Positions 81-20,663 of a stretch of 64,000 nucleotides of DNA are shown piece by piece. Location: NCBI GenBank assembly GCA_002840405.1, contig PHAR01000004.1, forward strand, positions 284,239 through 348,238, in the 5' to 3' direction. Made by a program: the position numbers and the translations under genes. Position 1 is the stretch's first letter; each line of letters starts with the position of its first letter. A model generated the notes under the pieces. That model worked only from the letters and a program-made list of their open reading frames with translations, had not been told where the DNA came from and ran no database searches. Source of the DNA: Deltaproteobacteria bacterium HGW-Deltaproteobacteria-8 (GTDB taxonomy: Bacteria > Desulfobacterota > Desulfovibrionia > Desulfovibrionales > Desulfovibrionaceae).

Positions 81-222
81 CCTTCTGCCTAGCATTCCTG
101 ACTGAATCCTAACAAGCTTGATAACGCTTTATGCTCTATGATTACGCATGCTAATCTAGAGAGTTAAAGTGTCTTCAACCCATAGGCTGTTTGTTCAAAT
201 TTGACTGAATTTGACCTGCGTG

Positions 223-240
223 TTAGGAATAGGTTAGGAA
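223..240 (+). repeat. Putative integrase arm-type repeat, left end of island 1
   Basis: The 18-bp sequence TTAGGAATAGGTTAGGAA contains two direct TTAGGAA units. The same 18-mer (one mismatch in the right copy) recurs at 17,881-17,898 and 29,369-29,386, each time next to an att copy. A repeated short direct motif just inside both ends of an integrated element is typical of integrase arm-binding sites. The role is inferred; the repetition is seen directly. Confidence 0.55.
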
Positions 241-308
241 TTTGGAACGCTGGAAGCCTATGCGTAGCTTACGCAAACAGGCAAACGCGACACCTCAGGG
301 AGGCGGAA

Positions 309-2947: not shown

Positions 2948-3219
2948 AGCAGAATCGCGCTAAATCCAAGAAGGTCAAGATACCCACGTCCACCATTCCG
3001 GCCCTTTCACCTTCGGAACCCCACGACAAACTTCTTACCGAAAAACAAGCGGCCCCCATTGTCGGTTTCACCGTCCGCACCTTGCAGCAAAGGCGTTATA
3101 TGCGCCTCCCCCCTGACTATGTTCGACTACCGGGCACATGCTCAATCAGATACCGGCTGAGCGTCCTGTTGGCGTACGTTGAGCAGGGCGTTCAACGTCT
3201 CGCTGAGGGAGTATTATGA
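2944..3219 (+). CDS. Second small HTH (AlpA-like) protein
   Basis: A 91-residue basic protein starting at GTG 2944, overlapping the previous stop. A Lys/Pro-rich N-terminus is followed by LLTEKQAAPIVGFTVRTLQQRRYMRLPPDYVRLPG and a wing-like segment SIRYRLSVLLAYVEQG. That is again the MerR-like HTH layout, divergent from the neighbour. It overlaps the next gene by ATGA at 3216-3219, so three genes form one translationally coupled unit: HTH, HTH, helicase-like protein. One of these HTH proteins may bind the iterons of this element; that is inference from context. Confidence 0.6.
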   Translation: MKQNRAKSKKVKIPTSTIPALSPSEPHDKLLTEKQAAPIVGFTVRTLQQRRYMRLPPDYVRLPGTCSIRYRLSVLLAYVEQGVQRLAEGVL

Positions 3220-5099
3220 AAGAAAATGAAACGGCCCTGGAGGTGTTGCCAGACACCTCGCAGGGCCAAAACCAAAGCGATTCACCAAATAGACAGATAG
3301 CCCCGGCTCTCGAAGAAGGCAATGAAGCTGAATGTAACGAGAACCAATCAACCCAGCCCCCCGTGGTTGTCCCTGGAAGTAACTTGTTCCTTTCACGGCC
3401 TGACGGCGTCTACTACCGTGAACCGAGCAAAAATGGTGACGAGCGGACTCCGGTTTGGCTGTGCTCGCCATTGCAAGTGGTCGCGCAGACACGAGACGCT
3501 TCCGGCGGATGGGGCCTCTACTTGGCCGTGCAAGACCCACTTGGAGAGACCCACCAATGGGCAATGCCCAGGAGCATGATGGGGGGAAACGGGACAGCCT
3601 ACAGAGAAGAGCTTCTGCGAATGGGCCTCAGACTTGGGTACAATGGAAACAAGAGGCTGTACGAATATCTCATGTCCGCCTCCCCCGAGCGATTGATGCG
3701 CTGTGTCTCCAGCACTGGCTGGCATGATGGGCGCTTCGTTTTGCCAGACATCACGTATGGCCCCCAAGTCGGCGAAGAGATCATCATTCAAGGCTCATCA
3801 TCCGAAACCCCCTTCCGCACTCAAGGGTCACTCGAAGGGTGGCAAGATCAGATTGGCCGCTTATGCGAAGGCAACTCCCGGCTGGCGCTCGCCGTGTCCG
3901 CAGCCTTTGCAGGCCCACTCCTCCACCTGTTTGGCCATGAATCAGGCGGATTCCACTTCACGGGCAATTCGAGTGTAGGAAAAAGCACGCTATTGATGGT
4001 CGCTGGAAGCGTATGCGGCGGGGGTGGTCAATCCGGCTTTGTTCGGACCTGGCGAACCACAGATAATTCACTGGAGGCTGTCGCACCGGCGCACAACGAT
4101 GCGCTCCTTTGCCTTGATGAAATCGGGCAGGTGGCCCCGAGCGCAGCGGCAGGTATTGCCTACATGCTTGCCAACGGCCAGGGCAAAGGGCGGGCACGGA
4201 AGGATGGATCTTCACGCCTTATGCACTCTTGGCGGGTCATTTTCCTCAGCACGGGGGAACTCAAGTTTGAGCAGAAGGTACGAGAGGAAAAGAACCAGCG
4301 GTTCATGGCAGGACAATCCGTTCGCGTGGTAGACATCCCCGCCGATGCCGGGGCAAGAATAGGCGCTTTCGAAAACCTTCACGGTTTTAGAGACGGCAAG
4401 GCGTTCTCCGAACATCTCAACCGGGCAGCGTTGGCCTACTATGGGCTCCCCTTTCGGCGATACCTTGAACTGCTCACGACCGACCGAGATCACTTCAAGG
4501 AAAAAGCAAGCGTGTGGCTCCGTCGCTTTGAGGCCGAGGCGTGCCCGCCCCATGCTGATGGCCAGGTCAAACGCGTTGCGAATCGTTTCGGTCTCCTTGC
4601 CGCAGCTGGCGAACTCGCGACCGAAATGGGCATACTCCCGTGGCAGTCTGGCTGTGCGCTCTGGGCTGCCAAACGTTGTTTTCAAGACTGGGTGACATCT
4701 CGCGGTGGCCTGGGTGCGGCGGAGAAATTTGCTGCTCTCGCCAGGGTCCGAGACTTCCTTGCTGCAAATGGCTCAAGCCGTTTTGAAAGCTGGGACAAAT
4801 CGAACGGCGAACGCATCGCAAACCGTGCGGGATATCGACGCCAAAAGGGGGAATCCGTCGAATACCTTGTGTATAACGGTCCTTTCAAAAATGAGCTTTG
4901 CGCGGGAGGGGATCATTTGGCTATTGCGCAATATCTGTTGGAGCGGAGACACCTAATCCCCGGCGAAAATGGCAACCTGGCCAAAGGTCATAATCTCCAA
5001 CAGGAGGGAACGACCACTCGCTTTTTCACAATCAAGGCCTCGATCTTCGCAGATGATTTTGACGACCTCACCTGTAAAGTGGAGCAAGAACTCGTGTAA
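3216..5099 (+). CDS. DUF927-type helicase/primase-associated ATPase
   Basis: A 627-residue protein whose central and C-terminal part matches the DUF927 family found in mobile elements. Walker A is GNSSVGKST (about residues 250-258) and Walker B is ALLCLDE (296-302), followed by a sensor-like segment VIFLSTGE near 341. The first 50 residues look disordered. DUF927 proteins are superfamily-3-like ATPases associated with phage and plasmid replication. Here it sits in a coupled operon with two HTH proteins and converges on a relaxase-Toprim gene, which supports a replication helicase role. The start at 3216 follows GAGGGA and overlaps the upstream stop. Confidence 0.8.
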   Translation: MKENETALEVLPDTSQGQNQSDSPNRQIAPALEEGNEAECNENQSTQPPVVVPGSNLFLSRPDGVYYREPSKNGDERTPVWLCSPLQVVAQTRDASGGWGLYLAVQDPLGETHQWAMPRSMMGGNGTAYREELLRMGLRLGYNGNKRLYEYLMSASPERLMRCVSSTGWHDGRFVLPDITYGPQVGEEIIIQGSSSETPFRTQGSLEGWQDQIGRLCEGNSRLALAVSAAFAGPLLHLFGHESGGFHFTGNSSVGKSTLLMVAGSVCGGGGQSGFVRTWRTTDNSLEAVAPAHNDALLCLDEIGQVAPSAAAGIAYMLANGQGKGRARKDGSSRLMHSWRVIFLSTGELKFEQKVREEKNQRFMAGQSVRVVDIPADAGARIGAFENLHGFRDGKAFSEHLNRAALAYYGLPFRRYLELLTTDRDHFKEKASVWLRRFEAEACPPHADGQVKRVANRFGLLAAAGELATEMGILPWQSGCALWAAKRCFQDWVTSRGGLGAAEKFAALARVRDFLAANGSSRFESWDKSNGERIANRAGYRRQKGESVEYLVYNGPFKNELCAGGDHLAIAQYLLERRHLIPGENGNLAKGHNLQQEGTTTRFFTIKASIFADDFDDLTCKVEQELV

Positions 5100-5267
5100 C
5101 CACGTAACCATGCACGAGCGCAAGGCTTTTAGATGAAGAAGCCTGTAGGAAGGAAGTAACCGTGTAACAAAACCGACGATGGAGGTTACTTGGTTACTTC
5201 TTTCCTACAAGTTCTGTAACCGCTTAAGGCTAGAGCAATCATGAGTTACATCGGTTACAAAGGTTAC
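5096..5267. repeat. GTAACC/GGTTAC hexamer cluster, possible origin element
   Basis: Ten copies of GTAACC or its complement, eight perfect, lie in 172 bp: 5096, 5104, 5156, 5164 (GTAACA), 5184, 5192, 5216, 5244 (AGTTAC), 5253 and 5262. Several are paired at exactly 8-bp or 9-bp spacing. The pair at 5156/5164 reads GTAACC and the pair at 5184/5192 reads GGTTAC, so they face each other around a 14-bp centre. The cluster lies between two convergent genes, where no promoter is expected, so a protein-binding array for replication or for priming on single-stranded DNA is a plausible reading. Confidence 0.6.
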
Positions 5268-7069
5268 ATTCCTCTCCCTCTTCCCCGGCTTCTGCCTCTG
5301 ACGGGCTCTGGAAGCTCTGCTTTCCGTGTCGTGGCCTTCCGCTCAAGGCGTAGCCGCAGCCGCTCGTTCCAATCCTTCCCCTCATCCGGCGTCGCACGTC
5401 TGGCTTCCGGGTACTGCTGCCAGATGCGCCTTGCCTGTTCATCGCCTGCGGCATCTTTATCATGCGCGAGCTTCACTTCTTTGCCGTCCAGATAAGTCTT
5501 AAGGCGCTCCACGGGCATATTACCGCCCGTTGCCAGAATTGTGCTCTCCGGCAGCCACAGCTTCAGGCTGAGGGCATCAATCGGCCCTTCTGTCACATAT
5601 ACCTTGTTGTCAGTGCCCGGCAGGACAAAGGGCAATCCCCCTTGTCCCAAGGTCTGCTTGAACGGTTGTTCCCCGGTTCCTCGCTTGAACACACCAGAGC
5701 CCTTGTCACGCGCAAAGACGCAGTTGCTCCGATTGTCGCTGAACACGAGCCCTTGCTCATGTGCCCCGTCCACGATGCGGGCGGGAATCTTGCGCACCTC
5801 GCAGAGATAGTGCCGCGCACGCTCCCAAGTATGCTCCACAGCTTCGGGCATGCGAAATGGCTCATGAACCGCAGCCTCAGTGATTTTTGCGGCACGCTGT
5901 GGTGCAAACCTCACAAAGTCTTCCGCCAAGCTGCTGGAAGCCTCCCCCTCGCCAAACACCTCGGCCAGGTCTCGCACGGCGAGCTTGAACTCATCCTGCT
6001 TGTAGTCCGAAAGGTACATGACGAGGTTGATTGGCCCCTTGCTGCCCTTGCCGGTGGAGTTGTCCACCCAAAGCGAGTCTGTCACGCCGATATTCATGCC
6101 ATCTGGCAGTATGAACTTGCGGCTCTTGTAATTCGGTTTGCTGTCTGGTGCCTCCTGCCCCCCATACATGCGCTTCAGCACCTCGCACGGGTCGATGCCG
6201 CGCATTTTGTCGGCCTGTCTGCGCAGCTCGTCGCGCTCCTTGCTTAGGGCGGAGTTGGCTTGACGTAATTCCTCGGACTGTTTCTTGAGCATGGCATTCT
6301 CTTTGGCCAGGGCTTGCACAACGGGCACGGCCATTTCCCGCTGGGCCTTGGCGGCAGTCTCCGCCGTGGCGATTGCATAGTCTTGGAGCTTGGAGTCAGA
6401 GATACGGACGAGCTTTCCGGGCATTTCCGGCAGATCAACGCCCGTCAGTTTGGGTAACTCCGGTGCGTTCTCGCCCTGGGTAAGGGCATAGAATTTGGAA
6501 ACCTCTTGGTGCTTGGCGCGGGAGCCCTCCAAGCCCCGTTGGATACCCAACGGAGCCACGGCATTGGCATAGTCAGTTTGAAGCTCTGACAAGGTTCGGC
6601 GGGTTCCGCCGAACAGGGCGCGGCAATTGAGCTTGCCGGTATCGTTCAAGGGCACAAGCACGAACTGGATATGCGGGGTGGCCTCGTCGAGGTGCAAGAC
6701 TGCGCTGACAACCCGGTCGCCGTATTTCCGCTCAAGCCATTGCCTGGATACTTCCGCCCAATCCTCAAGGCGCATTGGGTCGTAGACTCCCGGCTCATGG
6801 ACCCTGCCTGGCCGAAAGTACTCGGGGCTGGCAGACAGAATGCCTTCAACAGCAAGGACGGCATTCTTGCGAATGGTCTGCTCGCCAATGCGTTCCCTGA
6901 CGGCCTGGGCCAAGTCGAGTCCCGGCTCGCCGACCACGAAGCGGTTTGCTTTCAGCCGCTCCGGGTCGGCATTTGGGGTCTCGCGCTTGCGGGAATTGTG
7001 CTCACCCGCTCCGCCTATTGCTCCCCATGATTTGAGCTTAGCGATGCGCAGGACTGTGTAAGCTGGCAT
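5264..7069 (-). CDS. MobV-family relaxase fused to a Toprim (primase-type) domain
   Basis: A 601-residue two-part protein. Residues 1-230 match Mob/Pre (MobV) relaxases: an N-terminal AYTVLRIAKLKSWGAIGGAG, H24-N-S-R as in the motif whose His is the nicking nucleophile of MobM, and HLDEATPHIQ at 126-135 in the metal-binding position (last residue Gln rather than His). A coiled region covers about 230-290. A CHC2/DUF3991-like segment is followed by a Toprim core with Glu494 in VTEGPIDAL and Asp537/Asp539 in HDKDAAGD. The protein would nick oriT and prime synthesis after transfer, a layout that parallels the IncQ MobA-RepB fusion by convergence. The C-terminus is an Arg/Gly tail. Confidence 0.85.
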   Translation of the reverse strand: MPAYTVLRIAKLKSWGAIGGAGEHNSRKRETPNADPERLKANRFVVGEPGLDLAQAVRERIGEQTIRKNAVLAVEGILSASPEYFRPGRVHEPGVYDPMRLEDWAEVSRQWLERKYGDRVVSAVLHLDEATPHIQFVLVPLNDTGKLNCRALFGGTRRTLSELQTDYANAVAPLGIQRGLEGSRAKHQEVSKFYALTQGENAPELPKLTGVDLPEMPGKLVRISDSKLQDYAIATAETAAKAQREMAVPVVQALAKENAMLKKQSEELRQANSALSKERDELRRQADKMRGIDPCEVLKRMYGGQEAPDSKPNYKSRKFILPDGMNIGVTDSLWVDNSTGKGSKGPINLVMYLSDYKQDEFKLAVRDLAEVFGEGEASSSLAEDFVRFAPQRAAKITEAAVHEPFRMPEAVEHTWERARHYLCEVRKIPARIVDGAHEQGLVFSDNRSNCVFARDKGSGVFKRGTGEQPFKQTLGQGGLPFVLPGTDNKVYVTEGPIDALSLKLWLPESTILATGGNMPVERLKTYLDGKEVKLAHDKDAAGDEQARRIWQQYPEARRATPDEGKDWNERLRLRLERKATTRKAELPEPVRGRSRGRGRGM

Positions 7070-7986: not shown

Positions 7987-8709
7987 CTATCTCTGGGGGG
8001 CGATTGAAGCGATGCTTTGCATCCGGCCGAGTATGACAGGCACGCGGGCCTGACTGCCTGGGTCTGGATGCAGGAGGCCCGGCAGGCCGTCCAGAAAGTC
8101 GTCGAGGTCGATCCAGGCCGCGCAGGTGGAGGCCAGGAACGTGCGAAGGTCCTCAGGAGCCTGCCGCACCTCGTCGACCACTTCGGGCCGCCCGTCTAGG
8201 ACCGTGACGAGGTCCTCCAGGTCGTGGCTGGCCATGAAGTCACCCCTGCCCTTGCGGCCCGGGGAATTGAACGCCACGACCTTCGTCCCCAAGAAGAACG
8301 GCGCGGAGATGACCCGAAGGGAGACGCCTTCGACTTCCAAGCTCTGAGCATGGCGCATGGCAGGCAGGTACCAGGGGTTGGTGAAGCCGAGAATACTCTC
8401 ATCTGTGGGCATGACGTCGAGGATAATCTTGGCGGTGCGGTGCTTCCAGCGGCAGATGACCTCTTCTTCCGACGCCTCAAAGAACCCATGCTCCCGCAAG
8501 CGGTCCACGAATCGGTAGTATCCCGTTCGCGACGCCACCTCGACCACGACGTCAACGTCGAGCGTGGGGCGGACATCTGGAGCGGCAGGGTCCGTCAGCA
8601 ACAATCCTGTCGCGGCTCCACCGACGAAAACGACCTCAGCTGCCAACTCACCCAGGAGGCGGGCCGCAGTCACGAGATTCTCGACGTTGCCGCGCCAGCG
8701 GGGTCTCAC
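7987..8709 (-). CDS. Nucleotidyltransferase-fold protein, AbiEii-like toxin candidate
   Basis: A 240-residue protein with a minimal nucleotidyltransferase core: VVFVGGAATGLLLTD (G-G sequence, residues about 28-42) followed by PTLDVDVVVEV, where the two Asp residues are in the metal-binding position. The rest resembles the AbiEii/AbiGii group, including HDLEDLVTVLDGR. These enzymes transfer nucleotides to tRNA or other targets and act as toxins or abortive-infection effectors. It starts at GTG 8709 behind AGGAAG and overlaps the stop of the upstream HTH gene by GTGA. A bicistronic HTH plus nucleotidyltransferase arrangement is that of type IV-like toxin-antitoxin pairs. Confidence 0.75.
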   Translation of the reverse strand: MRPRWRGNVENLVTAARLLGELAAEVVFVGGAATGLLLTDPAAPDVRPTLDVDVVVEVASRTGYYRFVDRLREHGFFEASEEEVICRWKHRTAKIILDVMPTDESILGFTNPWYLPAMRHAQSLEVEGVSLRVISAPFFLGTKVVAFNSPGRKGRGDFMASHDLEDLVTVLDGRPEVVDEVRQAPEDLRTFLASTCAAWIDLDDFLDGLPGLLHPDPGSQARVPVILGRMQSIASIAPQR

Positions 8710-9215
8710 TTCTTCCTCAAGAGCTGCGTCAGGAGGTCTTGGGCGAGGTTCTTCTCCCGAGCGCGTCCGATGCGCAGCGCATCAACGAGGGCCAACGCCT
8801 CGTAGAGCTTTGCGTCCTTCAGGCAGGCCTCAGGCATGGACTTGTAAAGCGGGTCGATGGCCACTCCTCGCTGGTCTCCCACGGCAGACGGCCATACCGT
8901 GTGCCCATTGGAACCGATTTCAAAGTGACCGGCGAGGACAGGAGCGCTGAACCCCGTTGGAACGCCACGCGTGACCGTGCCGGGCTCGGCTGGGAAGGCG
9001 TATTTGACCCCGTGGATGAGGAACTCCTCCAGGGCCGCCGCCTTGGGCCTATTCCGGTTCGCGTCGTAGAGCTTGGCGATGGTCGCCCGCTTGACACCTG
9101 CGTAGGCTTCAGCCCTGCTCATGCCGAGTTCAACGGCGACCAGGTACGGCGTCGCACCGGGCTCCGCAACAAACAGCTTGAGCATGAGGCACACGTCTTG
9201 GGGTTTGAGCATCAT
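8706..9215 (-). CDS. Winged-HTH regulator/antitoxin partner
   Basis: A 169-residue protein with an N-terminal HTH segment (KPQDVCLMLKLFVAEPGATPYLVAVELGMSRAEAYAGVKRA, written here as its extent, residues about 4-44) and a C-terminal region that ends in a helical, basic stretch. It is the first gene of the pair and is coupled to the nucleotidyltransferase. By position and layout it should repress the operon and neutralise the toxin, like AbiEi-type antitoxins, although the C-terminal domain is not one I recognise. The start is one of two tandem ATGs at 9213-9215 and 9210-9212; neither has a strong ribosome-binding site. Confidence 0.65.
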   Translation of the reverse strand: MMLKPQDVCLMLKLFVAEPGATPYLVAVELGMSRAEAYAGVKRATIAKLYDANRNRPKAAALEEFLIHGVKYAFPAEPGTVTRGVPTGFSAPVLAGHFEIGSNGHTVWPSAVGDQRGVAIDPLYKSMPEACLKDAKLYEALALVDALRIGRAREKNLAQDLLTQLLRKK

Positions 9216-9330: not shown

Positions 9331-9543
9331 TAACAACAAAACATACTGAAAATACACAGCAAATGGCTATAAAAGGCGTGGGTCGGGGGGGTGTGAGGAG
9401 TGTGACAAGTCGGAATGGACCAGGCCTGGAGAGAGGAAGTGAATGAACACCCGGCAGATAGTAACTAGACATTTGTGTCATTGATTTTTGTTGCCCGTCG
9501 CACGGCATTCACATAGCTTTTGACATCTCGTTTAACCGTAAGC

Positions 9544-10593
9544 ATGGAGCGCACACGCATGTGCTTTCTGATACAAATCGAATACATTACGCTCGCTGTT
9601 GGCTCTGTTGAGTTCAAATCATTCTGCTATGGCTTGTTCCCCTCTGTTCCGAAGCGAACGCTAAGAAGTCTCACAACCGGTTCGCCGCCGCGACGGAAGA
9701 CCACGGATGCTCTGGTGTCGGATATCCTAAGGTTAGCCCCTGACTTGGGAGAGGAGGTGGTGCGCTCGGCTTTGCAATTCAAGGGGTCGTGGAAAGATAT
9801 CATTGGAGTATACAAGGCAGGGTGCGGAGAATCATTCCCCAAATCGTTTGGCTATGCAGCAGAAGTTATCCTTCAGATTGAGAATGCACAGTTCGATGCG
9901 TTTACTGCCAAAGCTAAGGGAGATGCTCGTTGGGTGGACCAGTTCAAAAGGTCAGGACTCCCGGTTGAAGTGATACCTGACCACTATTTGGAAAAATTGG
10001 CACGGTTCGCAACGCTAAGAAAGACGAAGGCGAACGAGCATTTTATACCAGTTGAGTCCTTTAAGGTTTGTCTAAGAGCCTGGCTTTATGTGTTGGCTGC
10101 GCTTGAAGTGTCCTTAATTCATTCTAGTTTAGTTTCCCCAAACATTTGTGCGTGGGTTCACCGGAGAATGCCGTACTACAGAGCAAAAGAGCTTGTCGAT
10201 CCAATGCGAAAGTTTTTTGAAGACATTATGGAACGGCTAGGTATCAACACTCTTACTGAGTTTGCAAAACAGCTTCCTTCCTTAACAACTTCGCAAAGTG
10301 ATAGGGATATACAAAGTCAGAGAAGGCAAATCGCACGCTGGATGTCTGGAAATTCACTGCCAAGTTGGGAATACATAGGCGTTATTCGTGACAGATTTCA
10401 TGGAGTAGATGACTGGATATTCATTATGTATGGAGCGGCTCGACTTTTACAAGTCTTGTTGAATGACTGCAAACTCCAAATCCCGGCAGTTTTCTCTGAC
10501 GAAGAGATCCTCGTTGAAGTCTTCCAAGAGTACACGGTGTGGCAGGAATGCCACAAGATAGGTTTCGCAAAATGGAGCGTGGCGAGGGGCTAG
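9544..10593 (+). CDS. Hypothetical protein, cargo gene of island 1
   Basis: No family is recognised. The ATG at 9544 gives 349 residues; a TTG at 9520 is in frame but less likely. The protein is soluble and mostly helical. Around residues 245-285 the pattern TEFAKQLPSL...RRQIARWMSGNSLPSWEYI resembles a degenerate Cro/C1-type HTH in which a helix is followed by W-x-S-G-x-x-x-P. Base composition is lower in GC than the integrase or mob genes. It stands alone between a toxin-antitoxin-like pair and two small genes, a typical cargo position. Confidence 0.55.
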   Translation: MERTRMCFLIQIEYITLAVGSVEFKSFCYGLFPSVPKRTLRSLTTGSPPRRKTTDALVSDILRLAPDLGEEVVRSALQFKGSWKDIIGVYKAGCGESFPKSFGYAAEVILQIENAQFDAFTAKAKGDARWVDQFKRSGLPVEVIPDHYLEKLARFATLRKTKANEHFIPVESFKVCLRAWLYVLAALEVSLIHSSLVSPNICAWVHRRMPYYRAKELVDPMRKFFEDIMERLGINTLTEFAKQLPSLTTSQSDRDIQSQRRQIARWMSGNSLPSWEYIGVIRDRFHGVDDWIFIMYGAARLLQVLLNDCKLQIPAVFSDEEILVEVFQEYTVWQECHKIGFAKWSVARG

Positions 10594-11885: not shown

Positions 11886-14612
11886 CTACTCTGAAGGTAC
11901 AAAAATGACCAAAAACTCGACTACATCTTTATGCTTAGCTCCACCATGAGACTTATGGACTGCTGGTGTACTAAAAGATTTAATGTTGCACGAGTGCTGA
12001 CTTGAAACTGACTTTATCACATTGACGATATTTGCTGAAGCAGTGTTTGAGTAGCTCCAAGCGCATGACCATCCAAGACTTAGAACACGGGAGATAATAT
12101 CATGCAACACATTACAAACAGCATTGCTATCCCTTGTAAAAAACTTTGAACTGAAGCGCTCTATAGGATGAGGTGTTAGCCCACTGCCAGAGCATGAAGG
12201 ATAATTATATTTAACAAGAGTCTCGAGCACATGGTAATACCTACTATATTCTTCTCTCGTATATGGTGGGTCTAAATACACTACGACATTCGAACTAGGC
12301 AAAACGTTACCTAACAAATTAAGTGAATTTTCCCAAGGACCATCAACCGTATGCACTGGTAATGACTTTGACTCACTGGATGCAGAAATACTTAAAAACC
12401 TAGAAACAAAATCGTGCACTATTGAGCGAGAGCGTGTGACCAATAAATCAGACAATGCCTTCTTGCTAATTGACCGGACATTCTTAACCTTCGGCTGTGC
12501 AAAGTGACCACCATAAGTTGTACCATTACAACTAACAGACGAAACCAAAGCACCTAATGCCCACTTTTTAACATAAGCATTATCTAATTGATCAATTGCA
12601 AAACGGAGACTATCAATTTCAAGAGATTGCCTTACACCAAAATATGAATTTGAAAAATATGATGTAAACAAACAATATGGATATCTATTTTGAGCAAAAA
12701 CTCTATTCTCAACCTCAGAAGCTGGATTCCAATCGTTACTAGCTAGATTATTAGCAATTGTAGGAAAATCCTTAATGAAAAGGTCATACCGAGTTCGAAG
12801 GATATCATTAGCCTCTGAGCAAAGGATTTCTGTTTCTTCATCAATAGAAGCAGGAATCAAAGACTTTAATGTCTCGAAATGCAGATAAAAACAACGCATA
12901 ATTGTTGTCAGTGCGCCATCTGCACTAGCAGAGTCGAATCCAGAACCTTGTATTGATGCTAAATATTGACAGAATTCTTGAGCATCAGATGCATATGTTG
13001 TCCAAAACTTAGAAAAAGCATTAGATGCGACACCTGACCCACACATCAAATCAACTATTATGCCATCTGATGATAAGATGGAAGAAATAGACTCAACAAG
13101 AAAGCTGCACAGCGCCCTTTTTGACCCCATATATTGAGGCGGATTGAGATAAGCGTTTAATTGCTCAGCGTCGGACATATTGATCCTATTAGCCTGTCGA
13201 AAAGCAAAATGAAGCAAGTCCAAACTATGGGTATGCAAAGTTGAATTGCACAAGAACTCAAACGTAAGGCTGGATTCTCCGGAATAATCTGAAATTATTG
13301 AAGAATAGCTCATAAGATTAACAAGAGAAGGAATAAAAGCTGGGACCTTGAAGCAATCCCTAGATACCCCCGTGATAGTATGACCATTTCCGAACCTGAT
13401 ACTGTACCAGACCTTATCCCTATCAACAGTTTTTGAAATAGAAAGACCAATTCCTGAAAGCCTAAAGTAGTCATCGTTCAAGAAGTACTCAGTCCCGCTT
13501 GAGTCGCAGTATTTTGGCAACAGCCCAAACTGTGATGCAAGAGCTAAGGTATCTGGATCGAGGCAGTACCTAGATTCGGCACTGATAGATGACATGACAT
13601 CTTCATAAGTTAGCAAGTGATGTGTAGTATGATGGCTCAAAATAAATGGGAAAGCCGTAGATGTATGATCGCTTCCAGCCAACTCGTTATGCGTTTTCAT
13701 ATTGGAAACGCTTTTACTGGACAAATCAATGGCCTCACGCACAAGAAGCAAGACTTCCATAGCGCCAACTTCTACACTGAAATTTGCAATATAATCACTG
13801 GATGATTTTGCCTTTAAACTAGCATTTCCGACTGCCACTCCAATCCCAGCCCATTTAAGCATAGTAACGTCATTGTTATTATCACCCATAGCCAACACTT
13901 GAGATCTATCCAACCGCAAAGCATTCGCGACGAACTCAAGCGCTCGTCCTTTTGTAGCTTCACGCGGGCAAATTTCTATGTAATTTGAGCCAAATGTATA
14001 AACAACACCGGCTAGCAAATCGAGAATCTTACAAATATGCGGGACAATAGCAGGATTATTGTAATGTAAAACAACAACAGATGGCTGCACAAATACATCA
14101 AAATCATTTTGCTGCAACCAACTAATTTTCATATCATTATAATCTAAACGTGGCCTATCTATTGATGACCATCCATATGCATACTCGATAGGGCTAACCT
14201 TATCTGAAGCAATAGCGTATGCAATGACCTTAACCGGGTATCGAGCAGGCATTGTCGCCAGAACGCACAAAGCTTCCCTACTAAGCAATTTCCTAGATAA
14301 AATTTCCCCATTCTTAGCCATTATTACAGCACCATTATACAAAATAACCGGGGTATCTTTCCCTTGTACAAGCTTATCGATTAATGTATTTGAGCCGTTA
14401 AGAGTTCGCCCGGTTGCTATGATCGTCCGAACATCATACTTAGGGCGGTTTAGCTTTGCTGCGAGTGAAGAAACGTTAAAAGGCAAGCTTGACTTATTGG
14501 ACAATAGCAATGTGCCGTCTAAATCCATTGCGATTAGACGTATCCTCGCAAACTGCGATAAGATTTCATTAGGGAAAGGAGACTTGTGAGATGGTAATTG
14601 CCTGTCAGACAT
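11886..14612 (-). CDS. HAD-IIB phosphatase fused to a D12-class DNA adenine methyltransferase
   Basis: A 908-residue fusion. Residues 24-290 are a Cof-like HAD phosphatase with all four motifs: D30-L-D32-G-T, T67-G-R, Lys221 (TKGRAL) and GDNNND at 243-248. Residues about 300-480 match nothing I know. Residues about 488-900 are an N6-adenine methyltransferase of the D12 (MTase alpha) type: YMGSK at 494-498, SAM-binding DLMCGSG from 521, catalytic DPPY at 781-784 followed by TREEYSRYYHVLET, and a terminal WSYSNTAS motif. The ATG at 14,612 overlaps the upstream stop by 8 bp; earlier ATGs lie deep inside that gene. It is AT-rich and the last gene of a four-gene operon. Joining a small-molecule phosphatase to a DNA methylase is unusual. 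Confidence 0.88.
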   Translation of the reverse strand: MSDRQLPSHKSPFPNEILSQFARIRLIAMDLDGTLLLSNKSSLPFNVSSLAAKLNRPKYDVRTIIATGRTLNGSNTLIDKLVQGKDTPVILYNGAVIMAKNGEILSRKLLSREALCVLATMPARYPVKVIAYAIASDKVSPIEYAYGWSSIDRPRLDYNDMKISWLQQNDFDVFVQPSVVVLHYNNPAIVPHICKILDLLAGVVYTFGSNYIEICPREATKGRALEFVANALRLDRSQVLAMGDNNNDVTMLKWAGIGVAVGNASLKAKSSSDYIANFSVEVGAMEVLLLVREAIDLSSKSVSNMKTHNELAGSDHTSTAFPFILSHHTTHHLLTYEDVMSSISAESRYCLDPDTLALASQFGLLPKYCDSSGTEYFLNDDYFRLSGIGLSISKTVDRDKVWYSIRFGNGHTITGVSRDCFKVPAFIPSLVNLMSYSSIISDYSGESSLTFEFLCNSTLHTHSLDLLHFAFRQANRINMSDAEQLNAYLNPPQYMGSKRALCSFLVESISSILSSDGIIVDLMCGSGVASNAFSKFWTTYASDAQEFCQYLASIQGSGFDSASADGALTTIMRCFYLHFETLKSLIPASIDEETEILCSEANDILRTRYDLFIKDFPTIANNLASNDWNPASEVENRVFAQNRYPYCLFTSYFSNSYFGVRQSLEIDSLRFAIDQLDNAYVKKWALGALVSSVSCNGTTYGGHFAQPKVKNVRSISKKALSDLLVTRSRSIVHDFVSRFLSISASSESKSLPVHTVDGPWENSLNLLGNVLPSSNVVVYLDPPYTREEYSRYYHVLETLVKYNYPSCSGSGLTPHPIERFSSKFFTRDSNAVCNVLHDIISRVLSLGWSCAWSYSNTASANIVNVIKSVSSQHSCNIKSFSTPAVHKSHGGAKHKDVVEFLVIFVPSE

Positions 14613-15603
14613 TCTGCACCACGTATATTTTGTGAGGAGTCCTTGTCGCCGTAGTCCTGGTTGTGTAACCTTTTGCGTCGAAAGTAAACGTTGACATTTT
14701 GCCATGCTCTGAAAGGATATCAATAAGTATTTTAGGCTTGATCAGACCGTTGTCAGTATAATGGAAAAGCAATGTATTGAATTTAGCCTTAGACAACATT
14801 TTATACAACGATTCACACGCTGAAGCTCGACTGTTATACCCAGAGACAACATGCCCTGTCACTGGAATACCGGACATTCCTTTAACTTCTGGGCATTCAC
14901 ATTTTGCGATCGTTTCTGGCAGATGGTAGTATCGTGAATACGACCTTTCGTTGTATGGTGGATCTAAATATAAAACATTGTAGCGATTACGCGCTGTCAA
15001 CAAATCAGCAGATTCATGAAAGCACTGTCCGTGTCCACCACGAGCAGACGGTACGACTAAATTAAATCTAAATGGATTTAAAGCTTTTCGATGCCAATTT
15101 TTTAAATAAGCGTAGTAGGTACCCGCTGTATTTGCAACATTGTCCATTCCACTTATTAAACCAGCAAGGAGCATTGCCTTCTCATCCGCATTCAAAAGGC
15201 CTTCACGAGTCCAACCGCTTATCAACTCTCGACATGCTTCAATCTTCATCGCGTTCGTTCTAGTAAAAAATCCGCGCCGATCGCTATATTCCTCAACGAA
15301 CCAACCATTCTTTGGTTCAACGCTGTTTAGAATGCTGTTAATACCTTCGAGAGAATTAACCCCTATCTTTGTAAATAATGTAGAAAAATTTGCTTCATTA
15401 GGAAATTTAATTTTCGATATCTGGAAATAGTGCGCAAATGTAAGCAGATCACCGCTCCAAACGTTGTAACCCTTTGATCTCAAATATGTTCCTACTGAAC
15501 CAATTCCACCGAAAGGATCACAGACTAGCCCAGAACCTGCATGTGTCTTGACAATCTCATAGATAACTTCATTTGCTGTAACCTTAGAACCAAAGTATCT
15601 CAT
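14605..15603 (-). CDS. D12-class N6-adenine DNA methyltransferase
   Basis: A 332-residue DNA adenine methylase. RYFGSK at 2-7 is motif X, DPFGGIG at 29-35 is the SAM-binding motif I, and DPPY at 214-217 is the catalytic motif IV. The latter continues NERSYSRYYHLPETIAK, close to the same segment of the fused methylase downstream (YSRYYH-x-x-ET shared), so the two are paralogues of one subfamily. A single D12 domain fills the chain, as expected for the family. The stop overlaps the next start by 8 bp. No endonuclease is recognisable nearby, so the pair may be a modification-only system or two halves acting on an asymmetric site. Confidence 0.88.
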   Translation of the reverse strand: MRYFGSKVTANEVIYEIVKTHAGSGLVCDPFGGIGSVGTYLRSKGYNVWSGDLLTFAHYFQISKIKFPNEANFSTLFTKIGVNSLEGINSILNSVEPKNGWFVEEYSDRRGFFTRTNAMKIEACRELISGWTREGLLNADEKAMLLAGLISGMDNVANTAGTYYAYLKNWHRKALNPFRFNLVVPSARGGHGQCFHESADLLTARNRYNVLYLDPPYNERSYSRYYHLPETIAKCECPEVKGMSGIPVTGHVVSGYNSRASACESLYKMLSKAKFNTLLFHYTDNGLIKPKILIDILSEHGKMSTFTFDAKGYTTRTTATRTPHKIYVVQNV

Positions 15604-15637: not shown

Positions 15638-16513
15638 TCACAATGAGTACTTTTTATGATGCTCAACATATCCATTAACATTTTCTGGGTCAGCAGAAAT
15701 TCGCTCAATAATTTTTTCTAGCCCTTCATCAAAAATGTTGCCGACATACAATTGGAAATTTTCACTACCGGGGTAAGGATCAATACAAATGGCACCGTTT
15801 CCATAAATCAAAACACAATCACCTTTACTCTTGTAATCATAGTGAATTATCTCAACTTTCGCAGCATCGTCACTTTGACGAAGGCGTTCTAATAATGAAC
15901 GCAAAGCATCGTCATCTACAGTTCCTTTATTATCAACATATTCTTTGCCTGCTCCACTTTTCATCAACTCGAACAGAAACAAGTGACTAATCTGCTCAGC
16001 AGCACACCATTTCAGAATCTCACACAAGTCATCTACCGATTCGTTCGTGACAACTGTCGCAGCATAAATTGATACTCTTAAGTCTCTTAAGATGGCGATT
16101 GCAGATTCCATCTCTTCAAACGAACCCACGCAATCCACAACCTTGTCATGCTTCTCACGAATCCCATGAACACTGAAACGGACAGCATCGACATTTCCAC
16201 CCACTGCCTTAATGTTTTTCTTTAGCAGTCGTCCATTTGCTGTTAGCAGCACATTCTTGAACCCCAACCTTGTTGTATATGACAACACTTCATACAATTC
16301 TTTGTAGAGCAGTGGGTCACCTCCGGTAAAGCATAGCCTCTTTGTACCGTGCCTCCAGAGCATCTCAGAAATCTTTGTAAAATTAACTACTGGGTATACT
16401 TTTTGACTTCTATCTGGTTCGCAGCAAAATGGGCAATGGTATTCGCATGCCCCAGTAAGCTTAAATCCTACAGAACTTAACACTAAGTTGTCAGCACCTT
16501 GGCCTTTTTTCAT
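15638..16513 (-). CDS. Radical SAM enzyme of the MoaA-like type
   Basis: A 291-residue radical SAM protein. The [4Fe-4S] motif CEYHCPFC uses Cys23, Cys27 and Cys30; TGGDPLL at 63-69 is the SAM-contacting GGE-type motif (Asp in place of Glu). The C-terminal part, with GNGAICIDPYPGS and VGNIFDEGLEKIIERI, resembles the end of MoaA/SPASM-type proteins but has too few Cys for a second full cluster. The ATG at 16,513 has AGGGG seven bases upstream. It lies 34 bp before the methylase gene in the same operon. The substrate cannot be read from the sequence; radical chemistry on a nucleotide or base that the methylases or the HAD domain handle is a hypothesis. Confidence 0.85.
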   Translation of the reverse strand: MKKGQGADNLVLSSVGFKLTGACEYHCPFCCEPDRSQKVYPVVNFTKISEMLWRHGTKRLCFTGGDPLLYKELYEVLSYTTRLGFKNVLLTANGRLLKKNIKAVGGNVDAVRFSVHGIREKHDKVVDCVGSFEEMESAIAILRDLRVSIYAATVVTNESVDDLCEILKWCAAEQISHLFLFELMKSGAGKEYVDNKGTVDDDALRSLLERLRQSDDAAKVEIIHYDYKSKGDCVLIYGNGAICIDPYPGSENFQLYVGNIFDEGLEKIIERISADPENVNGYVEHHKKYSL

Positions 16514-16536: not shown

Positions 16537-17184
16537 TCACAAAAGTGATAGAATTTCCCTAATCTTTACTCGGTGCGTCGTGGCAAACCCCAGAAACATA
16601 TTATTAGTAGTGTTTTGATCCTCAGCTGAAATTCTCATCATCCTATGGCCTAAAAAGTAAAAACATGCCGCAAGCAACAATGCAGTCGAAAAACCAACAT
16701 AGTAGTTTGACCTCACAAGAAAAAATTCAACAGTCTCACCGTTATCATAAGATATCCCAATGTAACACGAAATGGCGATCCACACCAAAGACATTGCATA
16801 TGACAAAGCAGCCAGATTACCGTGCATTATCCAAATAGCATGATGAAGACTTATGCTTCCATTATCTTCTTTAATTGCCATGTCATTGATTGCCGACAAA
16901 ATATAATATGGGTCAAGTACAGTTCCAATATTGCTCTGAAGTTTTCTGAAAAATTCAGATTTGCACTTGTCGTAATCATGCCTCAACCTGTACATTCTGA
17001 GTCCATCTATAACAAACCCAAACAGGACGCCCAGGACAAGCAAGCCTAGAGGTGTTAATGTTGTGACAATCTCTTTTCCAACCCGAGGCGAAAGAAAAGC
17101 CACTGGAAATAGGATATATGCGACAGTACAGAGCCCTGGCACAAGATACCATATCATGTGAGCTATAGAGATCTGCGTGATCAT
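16537..17184 (-). CDS. Four-helix membrane protein, first gene of the cassette
   Basis: No family is recognised. The 215-residue protein (ATG 17,184 after AGGTGA; a GTG at 17,193 is also possible) has four hydrophobic segments at about residues 11-31, 40-62, 125-147 and 160-182. A soluble loop of about 60 residues separates helices 2 and 3, and about 30 residues follow the last helix. The gene is AT-rich like the three that follow and ends 23 bp before the radical SAM start, so the four genes form one transcription unit. A membrane component in a modification cassette could be a sensor, transporter or effector. The region 17,194-17,530 upstream shows no gene. Confidence 0.65.
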   Translation of the reverse strand: MITQISIAHMIWYLVPGLCTVAYILFPVAFLSPRVGKEIVTTLTPLGLLVLGVLFGFVIDGLRMYRLRHDYDKCKSEFFRKLQSNIGTVLDPYYILSAINDMAIKEDNGSISLHHAIWIMHGNLAALSYAMSLVWIAISCYIGISYDNGETVEFFLVRSNYYVGFSTALLLAACFYFLGHRMMRISAEDQNTTNNMFLGFATTHRVKIREILSLL

Positions 17185-17530
17185 GACTGTCACCTATCCC
17201 CATATTTAGAAAATTGGCGCAGCAATGTGTTTAGAGCTAATACGCCAAAGGAGAAACTCCAGCCCCACTATTGAGCCTCATCTCCTCCGCCCTAAAGTCT
17301 CGCTCCATTTTTGGGCGCACCTAAACCTTTCAAAGAAGTGAAAGTTTGCAGCTCGGGGCAATCCCAGGGCCCAGTTTGTCTTGCTTTGGTTTTTCTATCG
17401 GACCTTGCCTCCCCTGACAATATGCCAATACACAATAGTATCGATATCAGCAGGTGGTTTTGACCTGCCTGCCCCTTTTCGGACCAGTTGAAACTTGAGA
17501 GAGTGGCCCCCAGAGAAGCAAGGGGGAGCC

Positions 17531-18126: not shown

Positions 18127-18861
18127 TCAGATACGCAGTGCCACCACGGTGACGTTGTCCGTGCCGCCGCCTTCAAGCGCTGCGGCAATAAGCTTTACGA
18201 CGCCAGACTCGATGGAGAGTTCAGGGCGCAGGCGCTCAGCAATCGCCTCGTCGCCGAGCACCTTGTGCAGGCCATCGGTGGCGAGCAGAAGGACATCCCC
18301 AGGCAACAGTTCCAGCACTCCCGAGTCCGGGGCACACACCGAGCAACCGACACACTGGTCGAGGACATGGCGGAACGGGTGCTTTGTTGCTTCTTCCGGC
18401 GTCATGCTGCCGTCGTCAAGAAAGGTCTGGAGAAAACTGTGGTCCACACTGACCTGCCGGAGAAGGCCGCCGCGTAGATGGTACAGGCGGCTGTCGCCCA
18501 CATGGGCCCAGTATGCCTTGGAGCCGCAAACAGCGACGGCGGTCGTCGTGGTGCCCATGCCGTCAAGCGTGGGGATCTTGGCCGCCTGCTTGGTGATGGC
18601 TTGGTCAGCCTCTTTGATGGCTGCGGCAAGGGCCGCCGCACTTGGGACACCCGGGAAGTTATGCGCCGCAAGCACATCCACCGAGATCTGCGCCGCCACG
18701 TCTCCGCCCGCAGCGCCGCCCATGCCATCGGCAACCGCGGCCAAAAGACCACCGCAGTCCAGCTCCCGCACAAGGGAGCGGTCCTCGTTGCGCTTGCGCT
18801 TTGGGCCGATGTCTGTGGCTGCAAAGACTTCCACGCTGTATCCTTTGTTGCTTTCAGGCAT
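18127..18861 (-). CDS. PP2C-type Ser/Thr protein phosphatase
   Basis: A 244-residue PPM/PP2C phosphatase. Motifs appear in family order: DIGPKRKRNED at 16-26, ADGMGGAAGGDVAA with the metal-binding Asp, HVGDSRLYHLR, LLLATDGL and GGTDNVTVV near the C-terminus. It dephosphorylates Ser/Thr residues with two Mn or Mg ions. It lies 11 bp downstream of a Ser/Thr kinase gene on the same strand, the classic kinase-phosphatase pair, so it most likely reverses the kinase's action. It is soluble, of normal family length, and intact. Confidence 0.92.
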   Translation of the reverse strand: MPESNKGYSVEVFAATDIGPKRKRNEDRSLVRELDCGGLLAAVADGMGGAAGGDVAAQISVDVLAAHNFPGVPSAAALAAAIKEADQAITKQAAKIPTLDGMGTTTTAVAVCGSKAYWAHVGDSRLYHLRGGLLRQVSVDHSFLQTFLDDGSMTPEEATKHPFRHVLDQCVGCSVCAPDSGVLELLPGDVLLLATDGLHKVLGDEAIAERLRPELSIESGVVKLIAAALEGGGTDNVTVVALRI

Positions 18862-18872
18862 TGATCGCGTGG

Positions 18873-20663
18873 TTACGGGGACGTCAGGGCCGTGCGGAAA
18901 CCGACATCAAAGAACGCTTCCCAAGGCTGGCGCCGCAGATGCGATTCCGGTCCCTGGTCTTTGACCATACCCCCGACGACATGAAATTCCGTGCTGTCTC
19001 CCTGCCCTGGCACACGCACCCATTCCCGGACGTTCTTGCCAAGCCCCCGGACCCCAAGCGCGTTGGGAGGTGACATGATAACGGGCAGCAGCCTGTTGGC
19101 CGCAGCAGGGTCGTCCGGTGCCGTAATTGTTGCCTGAGGCTTGGCGCTAGGGGCAGTAGTCACCGCACCGCCCATTTCCTCCGCATGATTCCAATGCCCC
19201 TTGGTCGGCAGCGTCAGCCCGTAATGTCGGGCATAGGCCTGTGCGCCTAAGGCAGTCACTCGCACCACCGGGTTCAAGGCGAAGGTCGGAGGCAACACGA
19301 ACGCGCCGTTCTGGTAAAGGATCGGCTCATAGCCTTCCGTCACTTCTCCCAGGATCAGCCAGATTTCCCCATTCCCCATAACCGTGCCGTCCTGCACCTT
19401 AACGCCGGGAACGCTTCGTAAAAATCCAACGAACTGGTGATTGGTGACGAGCGTTTCACCGAGGTAGAAGGGAGCCACGGCGGCTGACGTTGAACCATGA
19501 TTTTGGGCTTGCCCAGGGACGAGTCGCAGGGTGGCCCCGTCCTTGCCGATGATGCTTTCAGGAAGCGGGCGCGCCGTCGGGAACAGGGTGGCCTTGCCGC
19601 CCCCGCGCGACTCAAGCTCCGCCACCTCGCCGGAAAGCACCTGAAGTTCGTTTCTGGAAAGCGGTTCGTCGTTTGAGAAATGATACCAGAGCCCGACGCC
19701 CAAGAGGAGCACAACCACGACTGCCGCTACAACCCAGGTGCGTCTGGTCGCCTTTGTGACCGCCGCCTGGACTCCATCACCGATGAGACCGCGCAGGCTT
19801 TCCCGCAGGTCTTTGACAGAGGGCGTCCGCTCGTTCCTATCCCGCGCCGTGGCCTGCTGGATGATCCCGTCGAGGCGCTTCATGAACGGCGTCTGCGGCG
19901 CCGGGAGGGCGGCAGTCTTGAAGGGCTGGCTGTTTTCCTTGTTCAGCTTGCCGATCACCGCAGCGTACAGGATCTTCCCGAGGGCATAAATGTCCGCGCG
20001 CCCGTCCGCCATGGCGAGCCCCAGGAACTGTTCCTCTGGCATGTAGGGCACGGTGCCGAGGATATGGTGGGACTTGGTGACGTCGTCCGTGAAATCGCCA
20101 CCGGCCAGACCAAAGTCGGCAATTTTGGGGACTCCGTCGCTGATCAATACATTGGCGGGCTTAAGATCGCGGTGGATGATTCCGGCCGCATGGATGGCTT
20201 CCACGCCGTCGAGAACCGGCAAGAAGAACTTGCGGACCCACTCCTTGATGCGCTCCTCGTCGTCGCCAAAGCCTTCCTCGGGCATGGTCAGCTTGAGCGT
20301 CGAACCGGGCACGTATTCCATAGCGATGTAGTCGAGACTCTGCCCGTCGATCTGCACCTGATCGAAGTCAAAGACCTGGATCACGTTGGGGTGACGAAGC
20401 CGGGCCATGACCATGACCTCACGGCGGAAGCGGTCCAACTCTGACTTAAGCTCCTCCTTGTCGCCGTGTAGGCTCTCCACAAAGGCTTTGGACATGATCT
20501 TGAGCGCCACCTTGCGCTCCAGGTTCACCTGATTGGCCAGGTAGACCTCGCCCTTGCCCCCGGTGGCGATGTGCCCGAGGATCTCCCACTTGCCGTTGAT
20601 GACGGTCTTCTCGGCAAGGAGCGGCGCGGTCGCGGCCTCGGTAATTTCATAGTCAGTGGACAT
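18873..20663 (-). CDS. Transmembrane Ser/Thr kinase with FGE/SUMF1-like domain
   Basis: A 596-residue protein with a cytoplasmic Hanks-type kinase: glycine loop GHIATGGKGEV (30-40), Lys55 in VALKIM, catalytic HRDLKPAN, and DFGLAGG. One membrane helix, TWVVAAVVVVLLLGVGLWYHF (about 308-328), is followed by an outer FGE-sulfatase-type domain (YLGETLVTNHQFVGFL, LPTKGHWNHAEEMGG, VREWVR, GFRTALT). In true formylglycine-generating enzymes the last motif is GFRC with a catalytic Cys; here it is Thr, so this domain is probably a ligand sensor and not an oxidase. It pairs with the PP2C gene downstream. Sensor kinases of this layout are known, but the ligand is not. Confidence 0.9.
   Translation of the reverse strand: MSTDYEITEAATAPLLAEKTVINGKWEILGHIATGGKGEVYLANQVNLERKVALKIMSKAFVESLHGDKEELKSELDRFRREVMVMARLRHPNVIQVFDFDQVQIDGQSLDYIAMEYVPGSTLKLTMPEEGFGDDEERIKEWVRKFFLPVLDGVEAIHAAGIIHRDLKPANVLISDGVPKIADFGLAGGDFTDDVTKSHHILGTVPYMPEEQFLGLAMADGRADIYALGKILYAAVIGKLNKENSQPFKTAALPAPQTPFMKRLDGIIQQATARDRNERTPSVKDLRESLRGLIGDGVQAAVTKATRRTWVVAAVVVVLLLGVGLWYHFSNDEPLSRNELQVLSGEVAELESRGGGKATLFPTARPLPESIIGKDGATLRLVPGQAQNHGSTSAAVAPFYLGETLVTNHQFVGFLRSVPGVKVQDGTVMGNGEIWLILGEVTEGYEPILYQNGAFVLPPTFALNPVVRVTALGAQAYARHYGLTLPTKGHWNHAEEMGGAVTTAPSAKPQATITAPDDPAAANRLLPVIMSPPNALGVRGLGKNVREWVRVPGQGDSTEFHVVGGMVKDQGPESHLRRQPWEAFFDVGFRTALTSP

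Follow-up and report, generated by a model that had tools for sequence, protein, structure and literature searches.

A HAD phosphatase–DNA adenine methylase fusion gene, and the cassette family in which the two genes are usually separate

We describe a gene of Deltaproteobacteria bacterium HGW-Deltaproteobacteria-8 (GenBank assembly GCA_002840405.1, Desulfovibrionaceae) that joins a phosphatase of the haloacid dehalogenase (HAD) class to a DNA adenine methylase, here called M2. The gene lies in a stretch of 64,000 nucleotides (nt) of contig PHAR01000004.1 (positions 284,239 to 348,238), referred to below as the window. The fusion is real in the assembly, yet rare: in the family of cassettes to which it belongs, the two genes are otherwise apart, and a second methylase, M1, is also present. 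We have collected 13 distinct cassettes, and this family is a more interesting result than the fusion itself. We lean towards reading the cassette as an anti-phage system that is mobile, marked by methylation and of the second-messenger type, its phosphatase working together with the methylases. No description of the cassette was found in the literature searched; preprints and most subscription papers lay outside that coverage, so calling it undescribed is provisional.

Thirteen cassettes with a phosphatase beside a methylase

The family was collected by scanning genome contigs with a pattern taken from M1 only, LDPPYNxRxYxxxYHLPET. This gave 10 loci, representing nine distinct cassettes, and a HAD homologue adjoined M1 in all 10. 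Together with the window, a Bradyrhizobium plasmid, a phage contig and a genome of the host's own family (G609, where the cassette is split over two contigs) there are 13 distinct cassettes, a lower bound because the pattern is strict. Judging from the record titles, they presumably span at least three phyla. Several locus numbers refer to the same DNA. L079 and L080 are one cassette in two metagenome-assembled genomes, titled Proteobacteria and Desulfobacteraceae, and were counted once; L072 and L069 are shorter views of it. Likewise, L067, L068, L070 and L071 are shorter views of L087, L082, L086 and L081, respectively, and L073, L074, L075 and L076 of L078, L085, L084 and L083; L042, L043 and L077 are a single viral contig, and L003 and L013 a single plasmid.

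The cassettes fall into two types. Type A (n=9) is the row M1, HAD, a GGDEF-type protein with a thymidylate-synthase (TS)-fold region, a small methyltransferase (MT) and M2; it is found in three Clostridia loci (L082, L083 and L084), in Caenimonas (L085), Pseudomonas (L086) and Herbaspirillum (L087), on the Bradyrhizobium plasmid, on the phage contig and in G609. Type B (n=4) is defined by a pair of genes, one for a protein with four transmembrane segments (4-TM) and one for a radical S-adenosylmethionine (radical-SAM) protein, which accompany M1, HAD and M2; it is found in the window, in L078 (Desulfobacterales), in L079/L080 and in L081 (Geobacter). The HAD gene stands beside M1 in every one of the 13 cassettes. 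M2 can be seen in 12 of them (the contig of L083 ends in the GGDEF gene, and in L082 M2 is cut by the contig end). HAD is a gene of its own in 12 cassettes, and the window alone has it fused.

Many of the settings are mobile. The phage contig, IMG/VR 3300050336_000114, holds a complete type A row (L043:4279-11266) and, by reading, structural-type phage genes. The plasmid, CP126019.1, carries M1, a HAD-IIB gene, the GGDEF gene, the small methyltransferase and M2; this cassette is in apparent decay, with IS1380 inside the GGDEF gene and M2 present as two overlapping frames. Furthermore, there is a relaxase in the window and, by reading, a relaxase-like gene in G609, and the Geobacter cassette adjoins TniQ, TniB and TnsA/Mu-transposase-type genes. 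Directly upstream of the 4-TM gene in L079/L080 is a small protein without a Pfam or PADLOC match (L079:3441-4016, L080:4269-4844).

The active-site motifs of the cassette proteins are well conserved. HAD motifs I to IV are kept in 13 of 13 HADs, including that of the window, from which phosphatase activity is predicted; the pattern for motif III is loose, and its lysine column is invariant in the 12 aligned HADs. The M2 motifs are kept in all 10 complete M2 proteins, a count that omits L083, L082 and the split Bradyrhizobium gene, with motif IV reading DAPY in some. CxxxCPFC is present in all four radical-SAM proteins, and the GGDEF-type motif is intact in all nine type A loci. A tree of 12 of the 13 system HADs (without G609) and nine outgroup HADs, taken from 29 loci by the condition that the alignment reach 170 residues, groups the window HAD with the type B HADs (support 98/95), in a data set with long branches, including that of Bradyrhizobium, and uneven composition.

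Further searches used other proteins of the cassette. The fused protein run against the order and M1 against the class (348 genomes each, strict E limits) added only the G609 cassette, along with a methylase-only match in G617. An 8-mer scan of genome contigs with the fused protein found no relative. Against plasmids, tblastn found nothing for operon protein P0004, and for the Bradyrhizobium GGDEF protein it found that protein itself and GGDEF-only matches; against phages, the GGDEF protein of the phage copy gave one weak GGDEF match. An M2 pattern scanned over viral contigs returned the known phage contig only. A different arrangement is seen, by reading, in a gut phage contig (L004:1578-4472), where a single frame of 964 amino acids (aa) holds both an M2-like methylase and a further methylase-like region.

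The fused gene and its operon

The first-pass annotation of this DNA, made by a model from the sequence alone, reported one continuous frame with the motifs of both enzymes intact, and on these points it holds up. There are 908 codons without a stop on the minus strand, from 14612 to 11886, from which a one-protein product is predicted. The longest open stretch over 500 mononucleotide shuffles of the same DNA is 177 codons, so the frame is not due to chance. A script located the HAD motifs DLDGT at residue 30, ATGR at 66 (T67), TKGR at 220 (K221) and GDNNND at 243, and the methylase motifs YMGSK at 494, DLMCGSG at 521 and DPPY at 781. The proposed combination of Hydrolase_3 and MethyltransfD12 in one protein is also found, both Pfam matches being above cut-off: Hydrolase_3 at residues 27-285 (1.2e-37; 130.5 against 20.9 bits) and MethyltransfD12 (PF02086; 9.4e-9; 35.8 against 22 bits), with its best stretch at 774-809. 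The HAD-IIB model TIGR01484 is passed (64.0 against 41.8 bits), and the cut-off of the Cof-type model TIGR00099 is missed (110.3 against 137 bits).

An AlphaFold2 model of the fused protein has a mean predicted local distance difference test score (pLDDT) of 79 and a predicted template modelling score of 0.62. Its HAD part is mostly confident (10-residue means of 76-97, with one block at 58) and is of the YidA type; the best VIA match is 1rkq (Z 28.5, root-mean-square deviation (rmsd) 2.5, 260 residues aligned). The matches listed by structure searches with the whole model are HADs, with no methylase among the 50 listed. After the HAD part come a helix (280-308), a stretch with pLDDT below 50 (305-329), a middle region and the methylase. 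The first-pass annotation took this middle region for a 180-residue unknown domain. BLAST shows it, however, to be largely the beginning of M2: the alignments of stand-alone type B M2 proteins with the fused protein start at residue 325 or 351, and that of the G609 M2 at 333. With several type A M2 proteins the similarity begins only at about 422-494, the middle region being poorly conserved there. An independent inserted domain was accordingly rejected.

Could the joined frame be an error of sequencing or assembly, such as a lost stop or a frame slip near residues 301-305, with HAD and M2 separate here too? Several observations are in keeping with this. The end of the HAD part roughly coincides with that of stand-alone HADs; Met305, at 13700, lies near the start of stand-alone M2 and may be the former M2 start codon; in the remaining three type B loci, gaps of 5, 32 and 87 nt separate the HAD and M2 frames; and the fused allele, in one of 13 cassettes, is known from one assembly only. 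Whole-genome searches with the fused protein found no second HAD-M2 fusion in 59 relatives or in 395 genomes of the phylum, with at most two candidates scored per genome in the latter. On the other side, there is a single frame with no internal stop, the assembly has 13 contigs and is rated 100% complete, and no clear ribosome-binding site is evident by eye before Met305. We think an error unlikely. The first-pass annotation had named separate HAD and methylase proteins as the finding that would count against it; this is nearly the situation among the relatives (12 of 13 cassettes), and it is not the situation in this genome. We also considered whether the fusion arose when intervening GGDEF-TS and MT genes were deleted, and rejected this because HAD and M2 are already adjacent in the type B relatives, with which the window HAD clusters.

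The fused gene is the last of a low-GC operon that encodes, in order, the 4-TM protein, the radical-SAM protein, M1 and the fusion (Table 1); the first three were passed over in silence by the first-pass annotation. M1 matches PF02086 at 70.8 against a cut-off of 22 bits, contains DPPY and matches records annotated as LlaI and FokI methylases. The 4-TM protein has no convincing family match, and none in PADLOC. The operon stretch has a GC content of 38-42%, lower than the mostly 59-70% of the window to its right, so it was probably imported. Together with the genes to its left, it reads as part of an integrated mobilizable element. Between the candidate pair that adjoins the cassette and the cassette itself lies a frame of 357 codons on the plus strand (9520-10593) without a Pfam or PADLOC match. 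On the other side, at 18127-20663 (minus strand), a PP2C-type phosphatase stands beside a Ser/Thr kinase with an FGE-sulfatase domain.

Table 1. Coordinates of the fused gene, its operon partners and the neighbouring genes in the window
Feature	Position	Strand	Remarks
Fused gene HAD::M2	11886..14612	minus	908 aa, ATG start
HAD-IIB phosphatase part, residues 1-301	13710..14612	minus	ends at about the same point as stand-alone relatives
M2 N-terminal region, residues 305-490	13143..13700	minus	BLAST alignments, AlphaFold2 model
M2 D12-class adenine methylase part, residues 491-908 and stop	11886..13142	minus	YMGSK, DLMCGSG, DPPY
M1, second D12-class methylase	14605..15603	minus	332 aa, 8-nt overlap with fused gene
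Radical-SAM protein	15638..16513	minus	291 aa, CxxxCPFC, viperin/MoaA-like
Membrane protein (4-TM), proposed effector	16537..17193	minus	218 aa, about four hydrophobic regions
Putative tyrosine recombinase	201-1472		by reading
DUF927	3216-5099		
Mob_Pre/Toprim relaxase	5264-7069		
Two overlapping genes, PADLOC candidate pair PDC-M21B/M21A	7987-9215	minus	3.5e-57 and 5.7e-46; adjoin cassette

A possible role in phage defence

The genes around the M1, HAD and M2 genes include candidates for a signal maker and for an effector. The Pfam GGDEF model matches all seven type A proteins scanned, and the second palm of Cas10 matches three of the seven. The C-terminal part of the GGDEF protein (residues 636-858 in the phage copy) is closest to the phage dCMP hydroxylase AfhB (9iqu; Z 17.9, rmsd 2.8, 197 residues aligned), and the Foldseek list for the same part contains thymidylate synthases and dCMP or CMP hydroxymethylases. 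Thymidylat_synt matches one GGDEF protein, at 0.084 only. The PCH/PCL/PCV pattern, which we take to be the usual cysteine site of thymidylate synthases, is absent from all nine loci holding the TS-fold region, and nucleotide sensing or some other chemistry is thus possible for this part. Directly upstream of M1 in the three Clostridia cassettes are patatin genes (a 4-nt overlap in two, a 12-nt gap in one) that match PADLOC 'Effector, Phospholipase' models at 5.4e-94, 7.6e-94 and 3.8e-92; these are, we assume, models of effectors from CBASS (cyclic oligonucleotide-based anti-phage signalling systems). In the Caenimonas locus a lipase-like frame (L085:4801-6057), with Pfam matches below cut-off, is convergent with the cassette and could be an effector.

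From this gene content we infer a defence system along the following lines. M1, HAD and M2 would form the conserved core of a mobile operon. Going by their family, M1 and M2 most likely methylate adenines, each on one strand of a single asymmetric site, and so would mark the host DNA as self. In type A, the signal would be made by the GGDEF-type nucleotide cyclase with its TS-fold domain, whose gene is followed by that of the small methyltransferase; in type B, including the window, by the viperin/MoaA-like radical-SAM enzyme. Sensing of unmarked phage DNA would set off a membrane-damaging effector, the patatin phospholipase in some type A cassettes or the 4-TM protein in type B, with death or arrest of the cell as the outcome. 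The likeliest substrate of the HAD is the signal nucleotide or a precursor of it. As long as the methylases are occupied with self DNA, the HAD might hold the signal down; equally, it might complete signal synthesis when they are not so occupied, or deplete phage nucleotides.

The window fuses two genes that are adjacent in the other type B cassettes, which suggests that the HAD and M2 proteins work in one complex. The fusion is the main hint of physical contact between phosphatase and methylase, a hint that separate genes alone would not give. A bolder possibility, which we regard as rather doubtful, is that M1-HAD-M2 is the sensor module of a new immune class, where a nucleotide second messenger is under the control of DNA methylation and where signal makers (GGDEF/TS-fold or radical-SAM) and effectors (patatin or 4-TM protein) are interchangeable. 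Bound within the methylase pair or fused to it, the phosphatase would then set the messenger according to whether the methylases encounter marked (self) or unmarked (phage) DNA. Should the defence reading be right, it would bring together two branches of bacterial immunity that as a rule are found apart: self-marking by DNA methylation, and nucleotide messengers that act through membrane-damaging effectors.

How does the first-pass annotation look in this light? It proposed a coupling of phosphatase and methylase chemistry. That the genes belong together is supported by the HAD beside M1 and the intact HAD motifs in all 13 cassettes; the idea that the covalent link itself matters most is not supported, as HAD is separate in 12. 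Its idea of a signalling nucleotide was a fair guess, given the GGDEF-type protein in nine relatives and the effector-type phospholipase in three. Removal of a modified nucleotide near the methylated site has found no backing, as a YidA-type small-molecule phosphatase fold says nothing about DNA.

A number of points weigh against a defence system of this kind. The sample is only 13 cassettes, and the case is built from sequence and models. The GSK and motif I patterns of M1 miss three and four of 13 proteins, respectively, and the small-methyltransferase motif pattern misses three of eight. The M1 motif used for the search has 13 matches, of which those of the window, Bradyrhizobium and phage contig served in its design and those of nine cassettes were found through it, which leaves G609 as the one independent match. 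The HAD tree places the 12 system HADs together to one side of a branch, but with weak support (71/78). L079/L080 has its 4-TM and radical-SAM genes on the strand opposite M1-HAD-M2. No effector was recognised beside five of the nine type A cassettes (L085, L087, Bradyrhizobium, the phage contig and G609), the neighbours having been read by eye for four of these and two neighbours scanned for L085. In the Pseudomonas locus L086, a neighbour on the opposite strand matches a PADLOC '2TM' effector weakly (1.4e-9). PADLOC matched neither the GGDEF protein nor the HAD of the phage copy, nor either of two 4-TM proteins. A cyclase is absent from the four proteins scanned of the window operon, where we infer that the radical-SAM protein is the messenger maker. 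The small methyltransferase of the phage copy points to another system, MADS (see below), through a partial match in a common methyltransferase fold. Finally, a pair of methylases with no recognised nuclease is also what a pure modification system would look like.

The strongest functional rival, which we consider improbable, is a pathway of DNA or nucleotide hypermodification without signalling, in which the radical-SAM enzyme, or else the TS-fold protein together with the small methyltransferase, makes a modified nucleotide, the HAD trims phosphates, and M1 and M2 act on DNA. The likeness of the type A TS-fold part to AfhB and the presence of a cassette in a phage contig agree with such a pathway, as does a distant relative of the radical-SAM protein (23% identity) on the Escherichia coli plasmid NZ_CP027324.1 (L088:7974-9984). 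This relative is followed by deoxynucleoside kinase and NudI annotations, a possible nucleotide-analogue cluster. However, the patatins upstream of three cassettes and the 4-TM protein of four have no obvious place in the pathway, and the GGDEF-type motifs are intact throughout type A. The missing PCH/PCL/PCV pattern also tells against it, although other chemistry is still compatible.

It is very improbable that we are looking at an ordinary type II restriction-modification methylase pair with a metabolic HAD as a chance neighbour: M1 and M2 do match PADLOC type II methylase models, and among five opened loci with M1-like enzymes (four plasmid, one phage) an annotated restriction enzyme lies beside the methylase in two, McrC-type genes in one and an annotated HAD in none, but the HAD is linked in all 13 cassettes against a HAD-homologous stretch (E 1e-5) in none of 18 viral loci whose methylases are more distant (L044-L061, several of them short or cut), and no restriction enzyme was recognised in the cassettes by reading and family scans of representatives.

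Comparison with known systems

By the tests made, the cassette belongs to none of CBASS, Panoptes and BREX (bacteriophage exclusion); it may belong to restriction-modification. CBASS with patatin (CapV-type) effectors is similar in that three type A cassettes have an effector-model phospholipase upstream and a nucleotide-cyclase-type enzyme in the operon. The cassette differs in having a GGDEF/TS-fold protein, two DNA methylases and a HAD, and the window has neither cyclase nor patatin. PADLOC found no cGAS/DncV-like nucleotidyltransferase in the four window proteins or in three proteins of the phage copy (GGDEF, MT and HAD).

Panoptes (OptS mCpol and OptE; PMC12657218) is an example of a GGDEF/Cas10-type cyclase paired with a membrane effector. 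Type A alone shares with it a palm-fold GGDEF/Cas10-class cyclase and a membrane-acting effector. Unlike the cassette, Panoptes consists of two genes, and the word 'methyltransferase' does not occur in the text of PMC12657218. Neither GGDEF nor mCpol matched among the four window proteins, and no Cap15-like effector was recognised in the cassettes.

BREX/Pgl is alike in outline: methylation of an asymmetric site marks self, and the conserved partner PglZ has for a long time been labelled a putative phosphatase. The cassette has a D12 methylase pair instead of PglX, and no BREX family (PglZ, BrxC) had a PADLOC match among the four window proteins. The fold of PglZ is presumably that of alkaline phosphatase, as opposed to the HAD fold here. 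In its title, PMC12205998 describes PglZ as a metal-dependent nuclease, which is a warning about phosphatase labels.

Methylase pairs of the FokI, LlaI and MhoVII type also devote two enzymes to the two strands of an asymmetric site; in MhoVII (PMC12898733) this site is GATG/CATC, and only its M2 belongs to the D12 branch. Here there is no recognised restriction enzyme, and a HAD and signalling-type genes take its place. Family scans of the four operon proteins found no restriction nuclease family, bearing in mind that restriction enzymes diverge fast.

The radical-SAM protein of the window resembles prokaryotic viperins (pVip), matching pVip models with 65.9 bits at best. A true viperin was nevertheless rejected, because the protein scores 52 bits against the cut-off of 180 of the curated NCBI model NF038283. 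It has GGDP where GGEP is the usual viperin motif. The likeness to MADS, the methylation-associated defence system, lies in the PADLOC mad2 match of the phage-copy small methyltransferase, which is weak (7.2e-8, residues 107-213).

DefensePredictor DS-9 pairs a metallophosphatase with a HAD and is compared here by its description (PMC13092281). Its other partners differ from those of the cassette. Like the cassette, it places a HAD phosphatase in a defence system, with a role there that PMC13092281 leaves unexplained and states as an open question. If the defence reading is right, the cassettes described here would offer a testable setting for that role of HAD phosphatases in phage defence.

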